Positions 32,616 to 57,574 of a DNA stretch of 64,000 nt are shown in pieces. The notes under the pieces are model-generated. The model saw only the letters and a program-made list of their open reading frames with translations, did no database searches and was not told the DNA's origin. The DNA comes from an uncultured Victivallales bacterium. GTDB taxonomy: Bacteria > Verrucomicrobiota > Lentisphaeria > Victivallales > UBA1829. A program made the translations under genes and the position numbers. Location: assembly GCA_944391115.1 (NCBI GenBank), contig CALXSJ010000008.1, positions 1-64,000 on the forward strand, written 5' to 3'. Numbering within the stretch: the first letter of the stretch is position 1; every line of letters starts with the position of its first letter.

Positions 32616-32690
32616 TTTTTTGTTTCAAAAAAATCAGGTTAATACCGCGATGCTCCGCATCGCCGGAAATTGCTTCATTTTTTCCGGCGA
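32616..32690 (+). repeat. Dispersed hairpin repeat, copy 1 (partial)
   Basis: Begins with a T-run and A-run, then GCGATGC-TCC-GCATCGC (32647-32663), a perfect 7-bp stem with a 3-base loop. It continues through a TTGCTTC motif and a T-rich segment into TTTCCGGCGA. It matches the minus-strand copy at 35375-35498 over about 65 bases. It lies upstream of the RpiR gene and points away from it. From 32691 to 32932 I see no convincing gene or site. Confidence 0.7.
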
Positions 32691-35244: not shown

Positions 35245-35374
35245 AGATTCCGCATGATGCGGGAAGTGATTTCCTGAAGTCCGGCATGGCTTTGCGGAAT
35301 TTCCGGTCTGCATATTGGTACGGCAAGGAATGCGAAAATAAATTACCGCGATGCAGGCATGCGCGGGATCGGGA

Positions 35375-35498
35375 ATTTCGTCTGCGGCGGCCAGCTTGCG
35401 CAGTTGGAGCGCACCAGGACTCACTGGAAAGCACGAAGCAGTTTTTGGCGATGCAGAGCATCACGATATCAACCTAAATATTTTTTTGAATAAAAAAA
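35375..35498 (-). repeat. Dispersed hairpin repeat, copy 2
   Basis: Read on the minus strand it opens with a T/A-rich tract, then GTGATGC-TCT-GCATCGC, CTGCTTCGTGCT, AGTCCTGG and CTGCGCAAGCTGG. The first half matches 32616-32690; the second half matches the elements at 54736-54984. It therefore links the two groups. It ends 15 bases before the DUF4838 start and points away from it. A decayed ACCGCGATGC motif lies nearby at about 35344-35353. The rest of 35245-35512 shows no gene. Confidence 0.75.
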
Positions 35499-54735: not shown

Positions 54736-54984
54736 TGCGCGCGAAGCTGCGCAACTGAAAAAATAATTTAAAAAAATAATTTGCAAGGCAAATTATAATT
54801 CGTGCAGGACTTTCAGTCCTGCCGCGGTCCAGCTGCGCAAGCTGGTCGCGCAACGCGCGAAATAAATAAATTGCGCGCGAAGCTGCGCAACAAAAAAATA
54901 ATTTGCAACGCAAATTATGATTCGTGCTCTCCTTTCAGTCCTGCCGTGGTCCAGCTGCGTAAGCTGGTCGTGCACAGCACGAAA
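54736..54984 (+). repeat. Dispersed hairpin repeat, copies 3 and 4 in tandem
   Basis: Two copies, 54736-54862 and 54872-54984, followed by a truncated third at 54991-55011. Each has ATAATTTGC-AAG/AAC-GCAAATTAT (9-bp stem), a GCAGGACT-TTC-AGTCCTGC stem (decayed on one side in the second), CCAGCT-N5-AGCTGG, and a 6-bp stem that is TCGCGC-AAC-GCGCGA in one and TCGTGC-ACA-GCACGA in the other, a compensatory pair. They lie 25 bases upstream of larC and point away from it. No gene is seen in 54712-55319. Confidence 0.85.
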
Positions 54985-55015
54985 CAAAAAATTGCGAAGC
55001 AACTGAAAAACTTTT

Positions 55016-55320
55016 AAGAACGTGAGGGCTCCGCGCCCTCACCCTCCGCGGCAGGTGTGAGACACCTGCACCCGGCAGGCAAGCTTGCCGTCTTTTTTTA
55101 TGATAAATTCTTATTTTTTATTTTTTTTTAAGAACGTGAGGGCTCCGCGCCCTCACCCTCCGCGGCAGGTGTGAGACACCTGCACCCGGCAGGCAAGCCT
55201 GCCGTCTTTTTTTTATGATAAAATTTTATTTTTTTTTTAAGAGCGTGAGGGCTCCGCGCCCTCACCCACCGCGGCAGGTGTGAGACACCTGCACCCGGCA
55301 GGCAAGCCTGCCGTCTTTTT
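55016..55320. repeat. Three tandem copies of a triple-hairpin repeat
   Basis: Copies start at 55016, 55130 and 55239 (periods 114 and 109). Each carries GTGAGGGC-N5-GCCCTCAC, GCAGGTGT-GAG-ACACCTGC and GGCAGG-CAAG-CCTGCC (one base changed in copy 1), then a T-rich tail of 8 or more T. On the plus strand the last hairpin plus T-tract looks like an intrinsic terminator; the minus strand, which glgB uses, lacks a U-tract. The block ends exactly at the glgB stop codon. Confidence 0.9.
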
Positions 55321-57548
55321 TATTTTTTTATTTTCTTGAGGAATACCGCGCCCAGCCACGGCAGCCGCAGACGGATATGCTGTTTCTGTCCGTGATAAAG
55401 CCCATCCTCGGTTTTCATCACTCCGGGATTGGTCAATCCCGTCCCGCCGTATTCCGCTGCATCGGAGTTAAAAACTTCAACCCATTCCCCGGGGAAGGGC
55501 ACCCCTGTCACATAGTCGTCCCGAACCACCGGCGTCAGATTCAGAATCACGACAACGGCTTCCGTATGTTTCCTGTTCCAGCGGATATAGGAAAGAATCG
55601 ACTGGCGGAAATCTCCGCCGTCCAGCCACTGGAAGCCGGCATCGGTGAAATCCACCTCCCAAAGCGCCGGATTTTCCCGGTAAAAACGGTTCAGATCGGC
55701 GGAAAGACGCTTCATCGCCGCATGCTGCGGATAATCCAGCAGCATCCAGTCAAGCCCCGCATTGCTGTTCCATTCAATCCATTGTCCGAACTCGCCGCCC
55801 ATGAAAAGAAGTTTCTTCCCAGGATGCGTGATCATGTAGGAAAAGAGCGCGCGCAGATTCGCAAACTTCTGCTGATAGTCTCCCGGCATCTTGTCGAGCA
55901 GCGATTTCTTCCCGTGAACCACTTCGTCATGACTCAGCGGCAGAATGAAGTTTTCCGTGAAGGCGTAAAGCATCGAAAAGGTGATTTTGCCGTGATTGTA
56001 GCTGCGGTAGATCGGATCCAGCGCAAAATATTCCAGCGTGTCATGCATCCATCCCATGTTCCATTTGAACGTGAATCCGAGTCCGCCGAGATAGGCGGGA
56101 CGCGAGACCCCCGGCCACGCGGTGGATTCCTCCGCCACCATCATGATCCCCGGAAAGAGCTCGTGCGCCAGCTCGTTGAGACGCCGCAGAAACGCAATCG
56201 CCTCCAGATTCTCGTTGCCGCCGTATTTGTTGGGGATCCACTCTCCCTCGTTGCGCGAGTAGTTCAGATAAAGCATGGAGGCCACGGCGTCCACCCGCAG
56301 ACCGTCCACATGGAACTTGTCGAACCAGTAGAGGGCGCTCCCGATCAGGAAGTTTTTCACCTCGTTGCGCCCGAAGTTGAAGATGTAGGTGCCCCAGTCG
56401 CGATGTTCGCCCTGCCGCGGATCGGCATGCTCGTAAAGCGCGGTTCCGTCGAAGCGTCCGAGTCCGAAGGAGTCCTTCGGAAAATGCGCGGGAACCCAGT
56501 CGAGAATCACTCCGATGCCTTTTTCATGCATGTAATCGACGAAATAAGCGAAATCCTCCGGCGAGCCGTAGCGCGCGGTCGGCGCATAGAATCCCGTCAC
56601 CTGATATCCCCATGACTGATCGAGCGGATGTTCGCAGACCGGCAGAAGCTCGATATGGGTGTAACCCATCTCCAGAATGTAGTCTGCAAGCGCGTGGGCC
56701 AGTTCGCGGTAATTGTGGAAATCGTCCTTCTTTTTCGGATCCAGCCTGCGCAGTCCGGGGCCGCGCCAGGAGGCGAGATGCACTTCATAAATATTGACGG
56801 GCGAATTCAGAATATCACGTTTCGCGCGGCGTGCCATCCAGTCTCCGTCGGTCCATGCATACGGAGAGGCGGCGGGGACTCTTCCCGCATTGTTGGGGCG
56901 CAGTTCGGTGCGCTGCGCATAGGGGTCGAGCTTGACGAGAATGTCGCCGTTCTTCGTGCGGATTTCATACTTGTAGAGGTCGCCTGGTTGAAGCGACGGG
57001 ATGAAGAGTTCCCAGATGCCGGAGGAACCCATGAGGCGCATCATGTCGCGCCGTCCGTCCCAGCAGTTGAAGTCGCCGATCACGGAGACCCGTTCCGCAT
57101 TCGGCGCCCACACCGCGAAGAGAACGCCCTCGACCTCTCCCATGTGGTGCGGATGCGCGCCCATGACCTCGTAAATCCGGTGGTGTTCGCCGGAGTTGAA
57201 GAGATACATGTCCATTTCCCCGACACCGGGAAGGAAGTGATAGGGATCCTCGGAGGTGAAAGTCCCGCCGTCGGCGAAATGTTTTTCCACCGCATAATCG
57301 AAATGCTTCTTTTTCCCGGGGAAGGTCTTGACGAAGAGTCCGGCGTCCGCGACTTTTTCCATCGGGAATTTTTTCCCGTCCGCAAGCAGAAAAACCTCCT
57401 GCGCAACGGGATCGTAAACTCGAACGGAAATCCCGTTTTTTTCGGTGTGCATTCCGAGTATGGCGTGCGGATCGGCGATCCGTCCCTCAAAAAGCGTCCG
57501 GTAGGCTTCGGAATCAAAGGCGTCGTGTTTCGCAGCGGCTTTTTTCAT
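55320..57548 (-). CDS. glgB: 1,4-alpha-glucan branching enzyme
   Basis: A 742-residue GH13 branching enzyme that forms alpha-1,6 branches in glycogen. An N-terminal CBM48-type domain ([21 protein letters not shown]) precedes the barrel with the catalytic Asp in [11 protein letters not shown], the Glu in MMVAEEST and [19 protein letters not shown] precedes ATG 57548; an in-frame ATG at 57569 is less likely. No other glg gene is nearby. The 3' end abuts the triple-hairpin repeat. Confidence 0.96.
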
Positions 57549-57574
57549 GGTTCTCCTCCTCTGTATCACTTCGA

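Follow-up and report, generated by a model that had tools for sequence, protein, structure and literature searches.

The intergenic region between glgB and larC, both encoded on the minus strand of the analysed window (the whole 64,000-nucleotide stretch, from an uncultured Victivallales bacterium whose genome we call G000), contains an array of five hairpin-rich units: two of type I, followed by three of type II that reach position 55321 (Table 1). The type-I units lie in tandem, share 86% identity over 100 nt and each comprise the hairpins H1 (9-bp stem, 3-nt loop), H2, H3 and H4, with H5 as a flanking hairpin. An earlier note had reported these two repeats upstream of larC, and they are real; they prove to be part of a larger array, with three further units downstream. 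The note was also correct that the H1 stem ATAATTTGC/GCAAATTAT is the same in both copies and that its loop changes from AAG to AAC. The 249-nt stretch to which the note refers (54736-54984), folded as plus-strand DNA, is more stable than 200 of 200 shuffles (z -5.71), and folded as minus-strand RNA it gives z -5.30 against shuffles. The two copies do not entirely fit the description in the note, however: H2, GCAGGACT/AGTCCTGC in copy 1, is destroyed in copy 2, which reads GTGCTCTCCTTTCAGTCCTGC here. In the type-II units, the third hairpin occurs in the two-base covarying versions GGCAGGC/GCCTGCC, GGCAAAC/GTTTGCC and GGCAAGC/GCTTGCC. This last hairpin with its T tract (55073-55090, 55187-55204 and 55296-55313) resembles a terminator on the plus strand, antisense to glgB and larC. 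An Rfam 15 search of the window matched no described RNA family, and a tRNA/tmRNA search gave no hit.

Table 1. Genes, hairpins and repeat units of the glgB-larC intergenic region, and mobile-element copies elsewhere in the window
Feature	Position	Strand	Remark
larC	53533 to about 54710	-	flanks array
Type-I unit, copy 1	54736-54870		
H5-type hairpin (TGCGCGCGAAGCTGCGCA), left edge of array	54736-54753	+	repeated at 54872-54889
H1 hairpin, copy 1: ATAATTTGC-AAG-GCAAATTAT	54776-54796	+	stem invariant in 28 copies
51-bp core stretch	54799-54849	+	96-100% identical to numerous scattered copies, the 150-bp mobile element among them
H2 hairpin, copy 1: GCAGGACT-TTC-AGTCCTGC	54804-54822	+	
H3 hairpin, copy 1: CCAGCT-GCGCA-AGCTGG	54829-54845	+	
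H4 hairpin, copy 1: TCGCGC-AAC-GCGCGA	54846-54860	+	
Type-I unit, copy 2	54872-54996		
H5-type hairpin separating the type-I units	54872-54889	+	
H1 hairpin, copy 2: ATAATTTGC-AAC-GCAAATTAT	54898-54918	+	
H2 position, copy 2: GCTCTCCTTTCAGTCCTGC	54926-54944	+	broken (GTGCTCTCCTTTCAGTCCTGC)
H3 hairpin, copy 2: CCAGCT-GCGTA-AGCTGG	54951-54967	+	
H4 hairpin, copy 2: TCGTGC-ACA-GCACGA	54968-54982	+	
Type-II unit 1	55012-55098	+	three hairpins, T tract after the last
Type-II unit 2	55126-55212	+	three hairpins
Type-II unit 3	55235-55321	+	three hairpins
glgB	55320-57569	-	flanks array
Older full-length copy of the 150-bp mobile element	35337-35488	-	3' of TTTATT
Left-end fragment of the mobile element	32624-32663	+	A-tract, guide, H1

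The array is polymorphic in unit number across relatives. At the same glgB-larC site, genome G001 carries one type-I and two type-II units and G003 one of each, while the array is missing from G002, a member of the same genus whose larC is about 76% identical at the DNA level and in which glgB and larC nearly abut. The site also bears on the exchange of TCGCGC/GCGCGA for TCGTGC/GCACGA in H4 between the two window copies, which the earlier note had described correctly as a two-sided change. The first version is found here in G003 and the second in G001; the difference within the window is therefore a choice among standing variants, present at many loci, rather than a fresh local pair of mutations.

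The units belong to a dispersed family. The window unit has 68 matches in its own genome, and the H2-H3-H4 core is present in 191 copies in the stretches read from G000, G001 and G003, adjoining many unrelated genes; figures for H2 to H4 come from a strict scan of these cores. Matches to a 150-bp form of the repeat number 45 in G000, 41 in G001 and 36 in G003, counts that are lower bounds because this element limits the assemblies. Draft contigs often start or stop inside it (C16, C17, C34, C35 and C44 of G000; C3, C15, C37, C40 and C54 of G001; many contigs of G003). Good matches are numerous in just two of 25 relatives, G001 and G003; G002 has three, G012, from a different genus, has twelve weak ones, and a few other members of the order have one to three. 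The family is thus essentially confined to this Lentisphaeria genus, and viral contigs, plasmids and phage records yielded no match to it. Behind some type-I cores lie mosaic units of about 400 nt (L021, 3465-4012; L023, 3685-4031; L024, 3604-4270; L027, 3212-3703), which read CCGGAGCTCTCGAACTTTTCC...CGGGCGGGGGATTTCGTGCTCCGCACGACCAGCG...CAAGGGCC..., hold many more hairpins, often duplicated, and are 75-95% identical between loci.

The mobile form of the family is about 150 bp long, has five hairpins (H1-H5) and carries no gene; at least 19 copies in G000 are near-identical over the 150 bp and have sharp edges. Three orthologous empty sites show insertion directly 3' of TTNATT without target duplication. 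The insertion at locus L047 is missing from G001 and G003, where TTTATT runs straight into TCACGTGG, the element of G000 lying exactly between the two. That at L048 is likewise missing from both: G001 reads GGTTCATT joined to TCTTGAG, and G003 is equally uninterrupted. Conversely, the G001 insertion L174 is missing from G000, in which TTTTATT is followed directly by TTAAAAAAATCAGG. The motif precedes nearly all young insertions, and the element takes one orientation relative to it. At its right end, the element terminates in TTNATT as well; at L048, TTCATT flanks it on the left and the right end reads TTTATT, and since the two differ, the repeat is not a target duplication. As the right end recreates the target, each copy supplies a new one, which would allow head-to-tail arrays to form. 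Such arrays are common (e.g., L036, L046 and L188), and some of them could equally be explained by unequal recombination. In hybrids such as L028, a type-I-like H1 is combined with the mobile element's right end. No inverted repeats occur at the very ends of the element; an 11-bp subterminal inverted pair, TACCGCGATGC/GCATCGCGGTA, able to base-pair, lies about 18 nt from the left end and 7 nt from the right.

Other sites were less readily interpreted. Those of L045, L050, L183 and L199 are too diverged for a clean empty-site reading; for five TTGATT sites of G003, a single orthologous region was found, with a diverged target; and the comparison of L055 with L017 was discarded because of a synteny or assembly break. 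At the L050 site, G003 bears a seemingly independent insertion (L133) at the place occupied in G000, suggesting that the same target was reused. Some insertions (L177, 1480-1518; L183, 1520-1558) stand directly behind terminator-like hairpins ending in TTTTTATT; across the set, such hairpins precede 5 of 44 insertions and 29 of 857 control sites (p = 0.02), a weak preference. At a contig end in G001 (L230, C31), a foreign sequence, GTAAGTGCCCAGCCAGCCC..., interrupts the left end of a mobile element. The same sequence interrupts an IS200-type tnpA (L200, G001:C3:74500-78500), and is apparently another insertion sequence.

Turning to target choice, the motif T-N'-A-T-A-C-C, or a near relative, stands to the left of hairpin H1. 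Of 70 non-tandem insertions, 55 have an N' complementary by Watson-Crick rules to the target base N, compared with a permutation mean of 26.9; none of 100,000 permutations reached 55, and eight G.T wobbles (seven T with G, one G with T) account for most of the remaining pairs. The association follows subfamily structure in part. It nevertheless persists in every one of the three genomes taken singly, being equalled in 0 (G000), 1 (G001) and 215 (G003) of 20,000 permutations, with a weaker signal in G003. A natural experiment is provided by 19 elements of G000 in which base 17 varies and no more than one further base differs. All eight A17 elements follow TTTATT, whereas nine of the eleven G17 elements follow TTCATT, one TTGATT and one TTTATT (p = 1.2e-4). 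The G17 elements have one extra T at the left junction, which may be their first base. With TTNATT abundance in the window as background, the pairing is strong for guides A (P = 1e-13) and C (P = 6e-7), but that of guide G with C, taken alone against the frequency of TTCATT, is not significant (P = 0.24). On the right side, the base that precedes ATACC can pair with base N of the terminal TTNATT in 60 of 74 copies by Watson-Crick rules and in 73 of 74 when wobble is allowed; here the evidence is weaker, since both partners belong to the element and are co-inherited.

The statistics of these sequences point to guide-directed pairing with the target by a base 5' of a subterminal hairpin: one base of the element seems to pick its landing site. 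The pairs would be T+16:A-3, N'+17:N-4 and A+18:T-5, with the guide base at +17 facing -4, the position used by IS608. In that element, the pairs A+16:T-3 and A+17:T-4 are formed by a guide directly 5' of the left-end hairpin, the right end is read likewise, and insertion takes place 3' of the target without duplication (PMC5934647, PMC6006769). On the strength of the guide pairing, the end hairpins and a form of insertion like that of IS608, we favor guide-directed transposition through a single-stranded intermediate.

The stems themselves permit other readings. For the earlier note, the simplest reading was that folding, and not sequence, is preserved. The 9-bp stem of H1 is no such case, being invariant in sequence in 28 of 28 scored copies, with a loop that takes 12 forms. 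H2 is broken in 52 of 191 copies, most of which have the unpaired arm also seen in copy 2 of the window (GCTCTCC or GCTTTCC), and with 27% of copies unpaired here, selection for the folding of every stem is unsupported. H4 occurs as TCGCC/GGCGA, TCGTGC/GCACGA, TCGCGC/GCGCGA, TCGCAC/GTGCGA and others. The covariation that the note proposed to look for does exceed its control among 60 distinct cores, with 6 double-sided pairs against 2.1 in column shuffles and a score of 0.074 against 0.047, the shuffles leaving relatedness in. It is not by itself evidence of selection, because template switching, conversion and module exchange yield the same pattern. Indeed, the compensatory stems might have arisen by DNA-level template switching (a mechanism that has been described; PMC8794818), palindrome repair or module exchange, with no selection on folding. 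The stem versions are standing variants common to several loci, covarying two-base changes distinguish several versions of the third type-II hairpin, and the loops of the invariant H1 stem include the reverse-complement pairs AAG/CTT, AGA/TCT and AAA/TTT. Yet such pairs could be chance products of A+T-rich loops, no single event is resolved on a tree, and this account leaves dispersal, precise insertion sites and guide-target pairing unexplained. It competes with selection and is compatible with a mobile element; as the explanation of the locus we judge it unlikely.

A structured RNA, either a UTR regulator or a small RNA, acting on larC or glgB and held by RNA-level selection on its stems, is considerably less plausible. 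Its positive support amounts to the strong folding of the 249-nt stretch and the modest covariation, with some stems changed on both sides, in an array that lies upstream of larC between two same-strand genes. Against it, Rfam contains no match, the array is missing from G002 and variable in relatives, the core stands beside many unrelated genes, and H2 is so often unpaired. Furthermore, stem mismatches in the 191 cores comprise 27 of the G.T type and 28 of the A.C type, a balance that lends no support to folding as RNA from one strand. The note had left the choice between a structured RNA and a single-stranded DNA element; its DNA alternative is the one we favor, given the absence of a strand preference among mismatches and of an Rfam match, and a family whose dispersed copies vary in number and have moved recently.

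Other modes of movement were also weighed against single-strand, guide-directed transposition. A miniature inverted-repeat element (MITE) moved by a double-strand (DDE) transposase through the pair TACCGCGATGC/GCATCGCGGTA would make use of an 11-bp inverted pair that is present and able to pair. We hold this to be very improbable: the pair is not terminal, the three empty sites reveal no target duplication, and neither the fixed orientation to TTNATT nor the guide-target covariation is explained. Least probable of all is RNA-guided, reverse-transcription insertion resembling that of group II introns, in which the element would pair with bases just upstream; insertion directly 3' of a recognized sequence without duplication and the occasional position after terminator-like hairpins suit it, but 150 bp is too short for a ribozyme, the only reverse transcriptase found is that of G000, with no hit in G001 or G003, and the pairing position and hairpin layout fit IS608 better.

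A search for the enzyme that would move the element in this single-strand manner found no intact Y1 transposase in G000, G001 or G003 with the Pfam Y1_Tnp model, which detected a degraded IS200-type fragment in G000 (L053) and an interrupted copy in G001 but had no hit in G003. The hairpins of the resident IS200-type elements are other than those of the mobile element. G002 contains an intact IS200-type TnpA of 163 aa (L201, G002:C2:1-620), with an end hairpin of its own, CCACCGGCTCAGCCGGTGG, unrelated to the ends of the mobile element. The RAYT model NF047646 had no match in G000-G003; a search for Y2 transposases was also without a match, but its control was equally silent. An autonomous element sharing the ends of the mobile element was not found, and sites with a left end only or a right end only, considered as autonomous copies, proved to represent diverged copies, mosaics or the ends of contigs. 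Since the draft assemblies break at these repeats, the transposase gene may sit in an assembly gap. In Haloquadratum, palindrome-associated elements move even though the resident IS200-type transposases are pseudogenes (PMC3119063).

Together, these data lead us to a reading that we consider reasonably probable: the units between glgB and larC are mosaic, tandemly multiplied members of a genus-wide family of short, non-coding mobile hairpin elements. In this model, a transposase supplied in trans, a Y1 HUH enzyme or one functionally alike, would bind the subterminal hairpins of single-stranded element DNA. The left guide base, 5' of H1 at about +17, would pair with target base -4; at the right cleavage site, the corresponding position would be read by a second guide base, which lies 5' of H5. 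The TTNATT right end would then remake the target, permitting head-to-tail arrays, and recombination would subsequently expand, contract and mix units and stems. The type-I units of the window have no recognizable TTNATT ends or guides, their ends having diverged; that they spread as the mobile element does is suggested by the shared 51-bp core and by hybrids such as L028. A more far-reaching proposal, which we put forward tentatively and regard as rather doubtful, is that these are transposase-free multi-hairpin elements whose guide has been switched in at least three ways (A, G and C reading T, C and G), which are served by neither a conventional Y1 TnpA nor a RAYT but by some other enzyme, and which build tandem arrays by target re-creation. 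The family suggests how the intergenic DNA of bacteria comes to contain hairpin arrays and mosaic repeats, and it carries a warning that compensatory stem changes are insufficient for calling a structured RNA.

Among known systems, the element can be compared with the palindrome-associated transposable elements (PATEs) of Haloquadratum walsbyi (PMC3119063), of which one similar sequence is described in Halanaerobium (PMC7290912). Like them, it is short and gene-free, has near-terminal palindromes (here H1 and H5), makes no target duplication, has many copies with strain-specific insertions, and is mobile despite broken resident IS200-type transposases. PATEs, in contrast, have end palindromes only, where the mobile element has five hairpins; it also differs in its target-recreating right end, its natural single-base guide switch, its subterminal inverted pair and the lack of a detected autonomous element with the same ends. 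Thus, it behaves like a PATE, but no relation of its palindromes to the ends of a resident IS605-type transposon was found, and we do not assign it to that group. The small mobile repeats (SMRs) of Haloquadratum are similar in length (about 110 bp), in making no target duplication and in having an unknown enzyme (PMC3119063), but they possess terminal inverted repeats and insert into the palindromes of other elements, whereas the mobile element inserts at TTNATT in intergenic DNA. REP/BIME sequences and their RAYT (TnpA-REP) enzymes offer a parallel in abundant intergenic hairpins, clusters and a guide at the hairpin foot (PMC6006769). The elements described here are far longer than the 20-65 nt of REPs and do not alternate in orientation; with no GTAG/GTGG tag at the guides and no RAYT gene in the four genomes, they were not placed in this family. 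Nor were they placed among DDE MITEs, which are defined by terminal inverted repeats and target duplication.

A further comparison is with the IS200/IS605 elements IS608 and ISDra2, which share insertion 3' of a short target, the absence of duplication, subterminal hairpins and guide-target pairing at about +16/+17 with -3/-4 (PMC5934647). The mobile element differs from them in having no transposase (TnpA) gene. IS608 has a left target, TTAC, distinct from its right cleavage site, TCAA, whereas in the mobile element both are TTNATT. Guide-directed target choice is known for IS608, whose guide rule has been altered by engineering. In the present case, a single genome seems to run the guide experiment itself, with copies that differ essentially at one base landing at different sites, and the guide rule thereby becomes testable from sequence alone across strains.
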